This document shows, in pieces, positions 28,859-52,501 of a stretch of 64,000 bases of DNA. Below the pieces are notes generated by a model. It searched no databases. It was not told where the DNA came from and saw nothing but the letters and a program-made list of their open reading frames with translations. Numbering within the stretch: the stretch's first letter is position 1; the number at the start of each line of letters is the position of its first letter. Source of the DNA: Gammaproteobacteria bacterium. GTDB lineage: Bacteria; Pseudomonadota; Gammaproteobacteria; Poriferisulfidales; Poriferisulfidaceae. The DNA lies in assembly GCA_028819565.1 (NCBI GenBank), contig JAPPLD010000006.1:73299-137298 (forward strand), given 5' to 3'. The translations under genes and the position numbers were made by a program.

Positions 28859-30208
28859 TCAGGGCAACAAAATGAACTGGCTGCGTGTCCCGCGCTGGAC
28901 CTGAAGCAGCACTTTAGCGGAATCCCGGTCAATGGTGGCGCGGACATCCTCCACGCTTTTCACGGGACGGCGGTTGACGGAGCGCAACCGGTCGCCGGCA
29001 CGAATCCCGGCTTGCGTGGCAGGATAACCGGGCTCGGCCTTGACGATTTCGACGAACGTCGTCCCGGCATCTCGCTGGGTCGACAGCGTCAGCCCGGCCA
29101 TGGCCGAGTGGAGATTGGCTCCGTCGATGCGCAGGGTTGTGGTCGCCGCGCCGACAGTTACGGTCTCGCGGCCGCGGAGCAGTTCAATTTCCACTTCTCG
29201 GCCAGCACGCAATAGGCCCAGCACATTGCGCATGTCCTTGACATCACGGATCTCTTCTCCATCAATGCGCACCAGAATGTCTCCCGGGACAATTCCAGCC
29301 TGTTCGGCCGGTGACCCTTCCACCACTTCGGTGATGACGACGCCCTCAGTCTGTTTGAGGCCGAATGCTTCCGCCAGTTCCGGGGTCATGGCTTGGGCCT
29401 GTACCCCTAGTTGGCCGCGCTGTACTTGGCCGAATTCGGTTAGTTGGTTGGCTACCTGGAGCACCATATGGATGGGGATCGCGAAACCGATCCCGATATT
29501 GCCGCCGGACCGGCTCAGGATCGCGGTATTGATGCCGACCAGTTCACCCCGCAAGTTCACTAGGGCGCCGCCGGAATTTCCGGGGTTGATAGAGGCGTCG
29601 GTCTGGATGAAGTCCTCGTAGCCGTAGTTGTCGAATACGCCGCTACGACCCAGCGCGCTGACGATCCCGGAAGTGACGGTCTGACCCAAGCCGAAAGGGT
29701 TGCCGATCGCCACGACGAAATCTCCGACTCGGAGTTGCTCGGAATCGGCGAATGGCAGGCTGGTCAGGTCCTCGGCCTCGACACGCAGCATGGCCACGTC
29801 CGTTTCGCTGTCCGAGCCGATCAATTCGGCCTTGACTTCACGCCCATCGCTCAGGGCCACCGTGATGTCATCCGCTCGCGCAATCAGGTGATGGTTGGTG
29901 ACGACATGGCCTTTCTCCGCATCCAGGATCACGCCGGTGCCGAGGCCTCGTCGCACCCGTTTCCGAGTCTGTTGACCGGGCAGGCCGAAAAAATGCTGGA
30001 AAAAAGGGTCTCGGAACAGCGGGCCCGTGCGCACCACCTCTTCGTGGGCAGTGGAAATATTGACAACCGCCGGCACGGTTTTTTCGAGCATCGGGGCCAG
30101 CGAAGGCAGCGAATCCTTGCTGCCTTCCCAAGGGAACGCCGCCCAGGCGGGCAGGGCGAGGATGGCTGCAAGTGGGAGTATGGGCGCGATGCGAGACAGA
30201 GAAGGCAT
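28859..30208 (-). CDS. degQ: HtrA/Deg-type periplasmic serine endoprotease
   Basis: Do-family trypsin-like protease with a signal peptide (residues 1-23), a catalytic domain and two PDZ domains. The triad regions are VVTNHHLIARADDI (His), DSETDVAMLRVE (Asp) and INPGNSGGALVNLRGELVGINTAI (Ser). The first PDZ has GVVITEVVEGSPAEQAGIVPGDILVRIDG, the second GYPATQAGIRAGDRLRSVN. The symbol is by family resemblance; DegP, DegQ and MucD cannot be separated by eye. A TATACT box lies just upstream of the ATG (about 30218-30223), too close for a normal leader. Confidence 0.88.
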   Translation of the reverse strand: MPSLSRIAPILPLAAILALPAWAAFPWEGSKDSLPSLAPMLEKTVPAVVNISTAHEEVVRTGPLFRDPFFQHFFGLPGQQTRKRVRRGLGTGVILDAEKGHVVTNHHLIARADDITVALSDGREVKAELIGSDSETDVAMLRVEAEDLTSLPFADSEQLRVGDFVVAIGNPFGLGQTVTSGIVSALGRSGVFDNYGYEDFIQTDASINPGNSGGALVNLRGELVGINTAILSRSGGNIGIGFAIPIHMVLQVANQLTEFGQVQRGQLGVQAQAMTPELAEAFGLKQTEGVVITEVVEGSPAEQAGIVPGDILVRIDGEEIRDVKDMRNVLGLLRAGREVEIELLRGRETVTVGAATTTLRIDGANLHSAMAGLTLSTQRDAGTTFVEIVKAEPGYPATQAGIRAGDRLRSVNRRPVKSVEDVRATIDRDSAKVLLQVQRGTRSQFILLP

Positions 30209-30345
30209 GATTCGGAAAGTATACCCCGTTCGGATGGCTTTCGTCTTGTTATTTGGTCGGTTTGAGGGGGCCGACCTGGACAGGAATCATGGCGGTATCA
30301 GGCTGTTTCAGGATTTCAGATGCGGTCATTGATCGACCGCAAATC

Positions 30346-30436
<91 letters not shown>

Positions 30437-30456
30437 GGGATTCCTCCGGCGGAAGT

Positions 30457-30789
30457 CTAGGCTTTCTGGATGTCGCCCGTTCCCGCCATCGGGGGCAGAT
30501 ACGTGACGTTTCCTTCGGCCTTGCGGATTTCGCCGGTTCCCGCTTTTTCCACCTCGTCGATGCGCATGACCGAGTGCATCGGGATATAGGTCCGGGGGAC
30601 GGACTCAAATTCGGCCTTCAGCCGCTCTTCACTCGGGTCGACCACCACTTTCGCCTTCTCGCCGAAAATGATCCCTTCGATGACGATGAAGCCATACAGG
30701 TCGGAGGAGTAAACGTGCTCCGCATAGATCTCGTAGATTTCCCCGTTGGAGAAGAAGATCACTTTGTAGATCGGCTCTGGCTCTTGCAT
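30457..30789 (-). CDS. DUF1820 family protein
   Basis: 110 residues. The N-terminal EPIYKVIFFSNGEIYEIYAEHVYSSDLYGFIVIEGIIFGE followed by DPSEERLKAEFESVPRTYIPMHSVMRIDEVEK is characteristic of DUF1820, a small cytoplasmic family conserved in gammaproteobacteria with no known function. A strong extended -10 box precedes it. tRNA-Ser follows directly. No signal peptide or membrane segment is seen. Confidence 0.87.
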   Translation of the reverse strand: MQEPEPIYKVIFFSNGEIYEIYAEHVYSSDLYGFIVIEGIIFGEKAKVVVDPSEERLKAEFESVPRTYIPMHSVMRIDEVEKAGTGEIRKAEGNVTYLPPMAGTGDIQKA

Positions 30790-30815
30790 GACACTACCGT
30801 GATCGAAGAATACTA

Positions 30816-30824
30816 ATTATAGCA
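30816..30824 (-). promoter_or_regulatory. extended -10 promoter of the DUF1820/tRNA-Ser unit
   Basis: On the minus strand the sequence TGCTATAAT (30824 to 30816) is a perfect extended -10 element. Transcription would start about 18 bases before the ATG at 30789. No good -35 box is visible, as is common with extended -10 promoters. It overlaps the end of the icd region. Confidence 0.55.
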
Positions 30825-30833
30825 AGACCGCCG

Positions 30834-32177
<1,344 letters not shown>

Positions 32178-50356: not shown

Positions 50357-50488
50357 GGTTTTATCCCGAAGGCCGTGAACGACTATCGTAACGCATTGTG
50401 TTGCAATTCCTATACTGGAAAAGCGAAGGAGGGGAGGCTGAGATTAACTTATGGTAGAATTATTATAAATTTCTACCCCTACCTATTA
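50357..50488. promoter_or_regulatory. vapBC upstream region left of the tnpB element
   Basis: This 132-base stretch holds the original promoter area of vapBC. An AT-rich block has TAGAAT (50455-50460) and TATAAA (50464-50469). Without the inserted element, the TATAAA box would lie about 25 bases before the vapB start. No convincing -35 box is seen. Confidence 0.4.
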
Positions 50489-50496
50489 ATCCGATG
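50489..50496. repeat. left 8-bp direct repeat of the tnpB element
   Basis: ATCCGATG, repeated exactly at 51832-51839 on the other side of the element. This is the expected result of an 8-bp target-site duplication. Confidence 0.7.
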
Positions 50497-50519
50497 GGGA
50501 CTTATAAAGGAAAGTTGAC
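50497..50519 (+). repeat. left terminal inverted repeat
   Basis: Begins GGGACTTATAAAGGAAAG. It matches the reverse complement of the right end at 20 of 23 positions (mismatches at positions 5, 6 and 22). Confidence 0.78.
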
Positions 50520-50548
50520 AAGATAGTCTTCTCGAAGACAATCCACTT

Positions 50549-51826
50549 ATGAAAGTCCACCGCACCGTCCGCTACCGTCTTCATCCGGGTTCTGCCAGAA
50601 AGAACCAGCAACTGCACGGCACTGCTGGCGCTTGCCGGTTCGTCTGGAACCACATGGTCGGGAAGCTCAGGGACGACTATGACTATTACGGTGAATGCAA
50701 CTTCCATTACATGTCGACGAAAGCCATCCCCACGCAGGGATTGGGTCGGACTTTCACGATCCTGAGACGATACAGCTACCCATGGTTGCAGGACTATTCT
50801 GCGTATATCGTCAAGAGTTCGCTGCAGCCCATCGAGAGGACTTACAAGGCGTTCTTCAAGGACTTGGGAACAGGCGGGAAGTTGAACCGCAAGCCGCCGC
50901 GGTTTCACGGAAAGTGGACAATTACGCCTTCGTTTCCGATCAATTACATGTCGGCAAAGGTATCGGGCGACAGCCTGTACGTGCAGAAGGTCGGCTGGAT
51001 GAAACTGGACGGCAACAATCCGTACCCGGACGGCCAGTTCAAGTCCGGCACGGTCAAGTACGAATGTGGCAAGTGGTACGCCTACCTAGTGTACGAAGTC
51101 GAGGCACAGGCCTGCCTTCCCCATTCCATCAAGGCAGTGGGCATTGATCGGAACATCGCCGATGGCCGATTGGTGGTGCTGTCGGATGGCACGAAGCACG
51201 GTGGCCCCGACTTGGAACGCAAGGTGGCGCGTCGCAAGCGATACCAGCGCAAAATGGCACGACAGGTGAAAGGGAGCAACCGCAGGAAGGTTACAAAGGT
51301 GCGGTTGCAGAAAGCGTTTCAGGAGGAACGCTTCGCCCGGTTGAACTGGGCGCATCACGTCAGCAAAGGCATTGCCTCTGAGTACGATGTCGCCTATGTG
51401 GAGAAACTGAACATCCGGGGCATGACGAGGTCGGCCAAAGGCACGAGAGAGAAACCCGGTAAGCACGTGAAATCGAAATCCGGTCTGAACCGGCAGATCC
51501 TGACCAGCGCATGGGGAACATTAGAGTTGTGCCTGAATTACAAGATGGACGTGTGCAGCGTACCTCCGGCGTACACCAGCCAGACCTGCCACCAGTGCGG
51601 ACACGTCGACAAGGACAGCAGGAAGCAAACAGACTTCAAGTGCACCGCTTGCGGGCACGCAGACGATGCGGACGTGAACGCCGCATTGAACGTTTTGGCC
51701 TTCGGGAATGGGGCGGCTGGACGTGGAGGTGGCGACACCGGCGGGGCACCCTGCCACAGTCGGCCTAGGAAGCGTCAAGAAATAGGGAGACGAAGCAGAG
51801 AACTCTCTGCCAACTTTCCTTTATAG
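50549..51826 (+). CDS. tnpB: TnpB (RNA-guided nuclease of the IS200/IS605 OrfB family)
   Basis: 425 residues. The RuvC-like catalytic residues are all present: D200 in VGIDRNIADG, E285 in VAYVEKLNIRGM and D375 in DADVNAALNVL. The zinc ribbon has C347/C350 (CHQC) and C365/C368 (CTAC). The N-terminus MKVHRTVRYRLHP and the arginine-rich region before residue 260 are typical. TnpB proteins cut DNA guided by an RNA made from the right end of their element. The stop codon lies inside the right inverted repeat. The DED set suggests an active nuclease; activity is inferred. Confidence 0.92.
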   Translation: MKVHRTVRYRLHPGSARKNQQLHGTAGACRFVWNHMVGKLRDDYDYYGECNFHYMSTKAIPTQGLGRTFTILRRYSYPWLQDYSAYIVKSSLQPIERTYKAFFKDLGTGGKLNRKPPRFHGKWTITPSFPINYMSAKVSGDSLYVQKVGWMKLDGNNPYPDGQFKSGTVKYECGKWYAYLVYEVEAQACLPHSIKAVGIDRNIADGRLVVLSDGTKHGGPDLERKVARRKRYQRKMARQVKGSNRRKVTKVRLQKAFQEERFARLNWAHHVSKGIASEYDVAYVEKLNIRGMTRSAKGTREKPGKHVKSKSGLNRQILTSAWGTLELCLNYKMDVCSVPPAYTSQTCHQCGHVDKDSRKQTDFKCTACGHADDADVNAALNVLAFGNGAAGRGGGDTGGAPCHSRPRKRQEIGRRSRELSANFPL

Positions 51827-51831
51827 TTCCC
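51809..51831 (-). repeat. right terminal inverted repeat
   Basis: Read on the minus strand it begins GGGAACTATAAAGGAAAG. The tnpB stop lies within it. Confidence 0.78.
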
Positions 51832-51839
51832 ATCCGATG
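51832..51839. repeat. right 8-bp direct repeat, containing the vapB start codon
   Basis: ATCCGATG, identical to 50489-50496. The final ATG (51837-51839) is the vapB start. Confidence 0.7.
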
Positions 51840-52094
51840 AGCCTCAATATCAAGAATGAGGAAACTTGCCAACTTGTGGATGAGTTGGCCGAGTTGATTG
51901 GAGAGACCAAAACCGGCGCAATCACTGTTGCGTTGAAGGAACGTCTCGAGCGAGAGAAGAAACTTGCGAACAGGGACGTCCTAGCCCGGCATCTGTGCGA
52001 AATAGGACGGAGTTGCGCCAAACTGATGGGGCCGGGACCTTCCTCTACGGAGCATGGTGATTTTCTCTACGATGAGAAGGGGTTGCCTAAGTGA
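51837..52094 (+). CDS. vapB: VapB-type antitoxin (PSK family)
   Basis: 85 residues. MSLNIKNEETCQLVDELAELIGETKTGAITVALKERLERE is the ribbon-helix-helix/PSK-type antitoxin N-terminus that binds DNA and VapC. The start codon is unusual in that it lies inside the direct repeat made by the adjacent element, so the native leader has been replaced by the end of the tnpB element. No ribosome-binding sequence is visible before it on either side of the insertion. The stop overlaps vapC by 4 bases. Confidence 0.9.
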   Translation: MSLNIKNEETCQLVDELAELIGETKTGAITVALKERLEREKKLANRDVLARHLCEIGRSCAKLMGPGPSSTEHGDFLYDEKGLPK

Positions 52095-52501
52095 TTATTG
52101 ATGCTTCGGCCATTCTCGCAGTGCTTTTGGATGAGCCGGATGCAAGAACGTATGCAGACGAAATTTCCGGAGCCTGGCCGCGGCGTATGTCGGTGATCGG
52201 GTTTCTTGAGACGGCGATTGTGACCGAGAGCCGGGGAGGGGCGGATGCCGGAATCAAGTTTGATGCCTTTCTGGCCGATGCTTCAATAGAAATTGTCCCG
52301 GTGTCGTTGGATCAGGCATATGCCGCCCGCGATGCCTGGCGGCGTTTTGGCAAGGGTCGACACCCGACACGTCTGAATTTCGGAGACTGTTTTGCATACG
52401 CGCTGGCAAAAACGAGCGGTGAACCCCTACTGTTCAAGGGCGGAGATTTTCCTCGAACTGATATTGAAACGGTTGCGTTTGAGCCGGATTCTGCGCCGTA
52501 A
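52091..52501 (+). CDS. vapC: VapC-type PIN-domain toxin
   Basis: 136 residues. PIN-domain acidic residues are visible as D4 (MIIDASAIL), E40 (GFLETAIV) and D99 (NFGDCFAYALA), the usual metal-binding set of a VapC ribonuclease, with LFKGGDFPRTD near the end. The start is GTG 52091, overlapping the vapB stop. It appears intact. With the promoter displaced by the tnpB element, expression may depend on transcription through tnpB. Confidence 0.93.
   Translation: MIIDASAILAVLLDEPDARTYADEISGAWPRRMSVIGFLETAIVTESRGGADAGIKFDAFLADASIEIVPVSLDQAYAARDAWRRFGKGRHPTRLNFGDCFAYALAKTSGEPLLFKGGDFPRTDIETVAFEPDSAP

Follow-up and report, generated by a model that had tools for sequence, protein, structure and literature searches.

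Prokaryotic TnpB proteins have been described with IS200/IS605 elements, IS607 elements and the TnpB-only IS1341 elements (PMC3627910, PMC9956272, PMC3119063). A family study of 2013 used the confinement of TnpB to IS200/IS605 and IS607 as an argument on its role (PMC3627910), and the autonomy of TnpB-only elements has been called unclear (PMC9956272). Members of the IS200/IS605 family have no terminal inverted repeats (TIRs) and leave no target duplication (PMC3119063). In contrast, the TnpB-like Fanzor1 and Fanzor2* nucleases of eukaryotes have been captured by DNA transposons with TIRs and target-site duplications, and Fanzor elements also include non-autonomous, nuclease-only ones (SfAV) (PMC10711439, PMC3627910). 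IS1595 elements, which carry a DDE transposase, generate 8-bp target duplications (7 to 9 bp in IS1016 elements) that are often AT-rich (PMC12561309). Here we analyzed a 64,000-nucleotide stretch of a gammaproteobacterial genome, hereafter the window (contig JAPPLD010000006.1, positions 73,299 to 137,298), taken from a metagenome-assembled genome (MAG) of 1.8 Mb in 31 contigs. It contains a tnpB gene that was very probably captured by a non-autonomous IS1595-type element mobilized in trans, with TnpB most likely kept as an active nuclease whose guide RNA (omegaRNA) may run through the right TIR. That a transposon with TIRs can capture a TnpB-type nuclease is already known from Fanzor, and what is new is the bacterial case with IS1595-type ends. 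The window system differs from Fanzor in being bacterial, in encoding an ordinary short TnpB, in its IS1595-type ends, and in that its RNA boundary is a predicted one. We found no report of TnpB in IS1595-type elements, or with DDE transposases or TIRs in bacteria, in the open-access literature, ISfinder and subscription papers being excluded.

The element comprises 1,335 bp (window positions 50497 to 51831, by sequence inspection) and is bounded by 23-bp TIRs identical at 20 of 23 positions, the left one, GGGACTTATAAAGGAAAGTTGAC, at 50497 to 50519 on the forward strand and the right one, with reverse complement GGGAACTATAAAGGAAAGTTGGC, at 51809 to 51831 on the reverse strand. The 8-bp target duplication ATCCGATG is exact on both sides (50489 to 50496 and 51832 to 51839). 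The sole gene between the ends is tnpB (50549 to 51826, forward strand, 425 aa), whose stop codon lies within the right repeat. The inverted repeats with their 20 of 23 identical positions, the exact direct repeat, tnpB as the only gene and the intact DED residues had been reported in the initial annotation and were confirmed in the sequence. The TIRs begin with GGGA, as IS1595-type ends do, and we refer to the window's version as end variant B. When up to 3 mismatches were allowed, the 16-bp core of the repeat occurred at two sites in the whole window, both of them element ends, against a chance expectation of 0.18. The 16-mer CTATAAAGGAAAGTTG was found in 22 viral contigs, where about 20 would be expected by chance on a rough estimate, and a match to TTATAAAGAAAAGTTG on contig C29 of the window's own genome (G000) was set aside because it sits in an unrelated gene region. 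Compared with IS607 elements, the window element has TIRs and a duplication and only tnpB inside; serine recombinases elsewhere in the genome were not searched for.

An empty site was identified in a relative of the same genus, G001. The two flanks of the element, joined via a single ATCCGATG, were used as the query, and contig C3 of G001 matched it over its full length (1,158 of 1,158 bp, 90% identity). The junction is ungapped, contains one ATCCGATG (...TATTA-ATCCGATG-AGCCTC...) and shows 84% identity over 229 bp. The window therefore holds a true 1,335-bp insertion that duplicated 8 bp of its target, and since both ends are missing from the empty site, the repeats arrived together with tnpB.

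Next, we compared the window tnpB with eleven other intact copies from its own and sister genomes. The 12 copies share 73 to 90% nucleotide identity. Homology of the siblings to the window is limited to a module reaching from the tnpB ATG (50549) to about 51786, beyond which nearly all siblings have IS1595-type ends of their own (GGGAATTAT...). Nine copies carry end type A (GGGAATTATGTAGCAAAATCYGCAA) and G001:C19 carries type C (GGGAATTATGTAGATAACTTGACAG), whereas G001:C25 is mixed, with a C-like left end and a type-A right end. The module of tnpB and RNA is thus found between three end variants. Exact 8-bp duplications flank the copies at C24 (ATGCGTTT), G002:C2 (CAATATAC) and C31 (GTATATTA, read by eye), and near duplications matching at 6 or 7 of 8 positions flank two more (ATTGAACT/ATTGGGCT and ACAATCGC/ACAGTCGC). 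The objection that siblings end elsewhere was dropped, since their flanks are their own IS1595-type ends. Chance repeats as a source of the TIRs were likewise ruled out by the empty site and the sibling copies. A tree built from the module placed the B and C copies among the A copies, so that transposon ends appear to have been exchanged, although one B and one C copy make this a weak test. Variant-B ends occurred also in the fragmented genome G005, as four single ends beside ordinary genes. As a side observation, two variant-B elements of G005 (L108, 2830 to 3081; L110, 60 to 300) have about 50 bp in common inward of the end, where they seem to encode a small protein's C-terminus, ...VDRKGKPTIKEV.

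Furthermore, the arrangement extends beyond this lineage. A second TnpB lineage in the window's genome (C31:103262; 43% amino acid identity) has IS1595-type ends and the exact duplication GTATTGGA, read by eye. Such ends also bound the C26 TnpB and the roughly 50%-identical TnpBs of the more distant genome G200 (87% complete, 110 contigs), with duplications less clear; those of G200 are of the GGGAATTAT type. Judged from these sequences, the arrangement is family-wide rather than a single capture. At least five further divergent TnpBs occur in the same genome (L067, L068, L069, L070), of which C31b and C26 have IS1595-like ends, whereas the end of C6b (L070, record about 30200 to 31400, minus strand) is a long hairpin of another kind.

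Candidate autonomous partners were present in the same genomes. IS1595 transposase genes (PF12762/NF033547) were detected in G000 on contigs C2, C16 and C31. The one on C2 belongs to a 2,680-bp IS1595 transposon (G000:C2:12089-14768) with a perfect 37-bp TIR (GGGAATTATGTAGCAAAATCTGCAAGCGCAGGTTTCA) and the duplication GGCCATTT, and its transposase is a DDE enzyme of the IS1595 family (PF12762, E 1e-46; NF033547, E 3e-59). The outer 25 bp of this TIR equal the type-A ends of the sibling tnpB copies letter for letter. The genus holds six further IS1595 transposons whose ends are identical or related to these and whose 8-bp duplications are all exact: one in G001 with type-A ends (duplication TCTTGTTA), one in G002 with near-type-C ends and four with other GGGAAYTAT/GGGGATTAT end variants. 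No convincing ends could be mapped at the IS1595 genes G001:C30, G002:C18, G003:C27 and G003:C34. Y1 TnpA (PF01797), in turn, was detected in none of the six genus genomes, whereas 5 of 14 controls were positive. Ends, duplications and the available transposase all point to IS1595, one of the candidate families named in the initial annotation, and an IS1595 transposase may thus act in trans on the ends of the tnpB elements. A full-length insertion sequence with the same terminal repeats was found for the type-A siblings (the C2 transposon), but not for the exact variant of the window. In sum, the proposed capture of tnpB by a non-autonomous TIR element is supported by the siblings, the empty site and these transposons, movement in trans being inferred from them. 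Neither of the two findings named in the initial annotation as refuting it, copies that end elsewhere and relatives with the repeat but no insertion, was borne out. Like the window element, IS1595 transposons with their ISXO2-like transposase have TIRs starting with GGG and 8-bp duplications, and those of the relatives examined here also carry passenger genes; the window element differs in having no transposase gene and in its cargo, a tnpB with a predicted RNA core and pairing up to the right end. The passenger of the C2 transposon (L066, 2255 to 3454) combines an N6/N4 DNA methyltransferase with an HNH domain, and the HNH part gave weak matches, below cut-offs, to IscB/Cas9 models. The IS1595 transposon on C16 (L141, 3736 to 5957) has the TIR GGGAATTATATATAAAAGTAACG, the duplication AAAAAGAA and a 177-aa passenger open reading frame.

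The window protein contains the domains PF07282, PF01385 and PF12323 (Pfam) and NF040570 (NCBIfam). In an alignment with solved structures of the TnpB type, its RuvC residues D200, E285 and D375 and its zinc finger (CxxC...CxxC) are in place. It scored 150 bits with the IS200 TnpB model and 82 bits with the IS607 model, both under the cut-offs, and ordinary TnpBs of plasmid and phage collections were only about 30 to 34% identical to it. The module frame is open, without stops, in all 12 genus copies at 10 to 27% nucleotide divergence, and dN/dS (the ratio of nonsynonymous to synonymous divergence) over the tnpB body was 0.10 to 0.17 against the window copy, indicating purifying selection.

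Toward the 3′ end of the gene the constraint changes. From 51695 to 51786, dS fell to 0.04-0.24 from 0.6-1.5, and in most pairs dN did not stay lower than dS, a pattern that constraint on the nucleotides themselves would produce. The predicted omegaRNA core (51695 to 51778, forward strand), which overlaps the 3′ end of tnpB, is near-invariant across 10 copies and is predicted to fold into a closed domain, TTGGCCTTC...GAAGCGTCAA, with a closing stem and inner hairpins; because it hardly varies, it offers little covariation for testing this fold. A search of Rfam gave no match for the predicted RNA. In every end variant, the segment from the core to the tip contains an arm predicted to pair with the inner half of the right TIR, so that other copies have analogous hairpins of different sequence. 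In the window this right-end hairpin would span 51786 to 51819 (forward strand), the inner half of the repeat being its 3′ arm, with a minimum free energy (MFE) of −13.8 kcal/mol (z −3.1); the corresponding values were −18.4 (z −6.0) for type C and −13.7 (z −3.1) for G002:C19, and the predicted fold of left ends was never below −5.7. In three ordinary plasmid TnpBs, a terminal hairpin precedes the tail GGATGTCAA or one like it, and the right TIR of the window element appears to occupy the place of that hairpin. With IS1341 elements the window element has in common a single tnpB, an RNA-like 3′ end overlapping the gene and a right terminal hairpin. It differs from them in its TIRs and 8-bp duplication, both of them absent from IS200/IS605 (PMC3119063), in belonging to a genus in which Y1 TnpA was not detected, and in that the end hairpin of the plasmid examples (...GGGGAGGATGTCAA) seems to have given way to one that the IS1595 repeat helps to form. 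A comparable solution has been described for Fanzor1 and Fanzor2* elements, whose TIR and target-site duplication form part of the scaffold of the guide RNA (reRNA) (PMC10711439).

From these data we infer mobilization in trans, the RNA boundary, the source of the guide and the benefit to the element as follows. A unit of tnpB and overlapping omegaRNA (ATG at 50549 to about 51786) would be seated between two IS1595-type ends, and an IS1595-family DDE transposase would act in trans at their GGGAAYTAT... tips, making the 8-bp target duplication. TnpB would most likely be retained because it is active and processes an omegaRNA that reaches through the right TIR into flanking DNA. The scaffold would then include the right TIR, which would supply its final hairpin, and the guide would come from the target duplication and/or the flank. 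Cleavage of the empty donor or allelic site by TnpB, followed by repair, could restore or spread the element. That the guide begins at or after the target duplication is the least certain step, for and against which the evidence is about evenly balanced. A wider scenario, to be held tentatively and slightly short of that balance, is that a bacterial TnpB lineage switched from HUH or serine transposases to DDE transposons of the IS1595 family, the right TIR and its pairing arm being rewritten at each change of ends, so that the same module goes on drawing its guide from every new flank.

Several observations weigh against this interpretation. In the other type-A copies the right-end hairpin is weak by z-score (z −0.9 to −1.5; MFE about −10), and folding is also predicted for some IS1595 ends. 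No TAM-like (target-adjacent) motif shared by the left flanks was obvious by eye, though guides taken from the flank need one. A clear duplication was not seen at G003:C89, G003:C19 and G001:C25. No IS1595 transposon with the exact window ends (TATAAAGGAAAGTTGGC; TATAAAGGAAAGTTG ends) was found in the genomes examined, the nearest IS1595 end in the window's genome (G000:C31) sharing, as judged by eye, 17 of the 23 positions. In G005, the only other known source of variant B, no transposase was visible near these ends, and in G200 no IS1595 transposase was detected despite the ends of its TnpBs. Finally, the genomes compared were mostly MAGs.

The main rival reading is that, in the same IS1595-type element, the scaffold ends at ...GAAGCGTCAA(GAAAT), leaving an internal guide that is constant for each end variant and directed at a fixed target, such as IS1595 ends or elements without tnpB, in a homing or weapon-like manner rather than at the donor site. 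Consistent with this, the near-invariant core stops at GAAGCGTCAA, the sequence that follows is almost constant among type-A copies, and the module lies between different ends, with the mixed ends of G001:C25 looking as if they came from gene conversion. However, the would-be guides had no match outside tnpB elements in the roughly 560 kb examined (not whole genomes), and the stretch that follows the core is complementary to itself, which would make it a poor guide, its hairpin being kept while the letters change. We consider an internal guide unlikely.

A TnpB carried as an inert passenger, without functional RNA, on an IS1595 derivative resembling a miniature inverted-repeat transposable element (MITE) is less probable still. 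DDE elements often have non-autonomous derivatives with random cargo, but the frames open in 12 of 12 copies despite their divergence, the low dN/dS, the low dS over the RNA core and the intact catalytic residues make such a passenger very improbable. Scarcely tenable is the view that the TnpB element is an ordinary one of the IS200/IS605 (IS1341) or IS607 kind and lies amid fortuitous repeats or inserted into an older IS1595 MITE. The protein is indeed a TnpB and TnpB-only IS1341 elements are common, but for the window insertion this explanation is refuted by an empty site without either end. Moreover, the siblings have the same kind of ends, Y1 TnpA went undetected in the genus, the three plasmid TnpBs had no comparable TIR and duplication, and ordinary TnpBs are only distantly similar. 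An old insertion into a MITE could still lie at the origin of the tnpB family as a whole.

All genomic signs suggest that this bacterial TnpB lineage travels on the ends of DDE transposons, and both an empty site and autonomous partners are available for it. It would offer a compact bacterial system for testing how the guide RNA of TnpB adapts to replaced ends, so far studied in Fanzors and IS607, and a bacterial counterpart to the cargo arrangement known until now from the Fanzor nucleases of eukaryotes.

Regarding the remaining features of the locus, a candidate tnpB promoter was read at 50515 to 50543 (forward strand), with TTGACA at 50515 to 50520 overlapping the left repeat, a 17-bp spacer and ACAATC at 50538 to 50543. 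Named relatives of the genus among the loci were COS4_bin_16 (JAPOXW, "Gammaproteobacteria bacterium") and "Candidatus Porisulfidus sp. TsSOB" (MRSX, from a sponge). Downstream of the element lies a vapBC-like toxin-antitoxin pair, named from the impression of its sequence (51837 to 52094 and 52091 to 52501), and the ATG inside the right copy of ATCCGATG is the start codon of the vapB-like gene. The element sits between this start codon and an upstream palindrome, GGTAGAATTATTATAAATTTCTACC (50453 to 50477), which the insertion cut off from the pair. The palindrome is identical at the uninterrupted G001 locus and is probably the operator of the vapBC-like pair.
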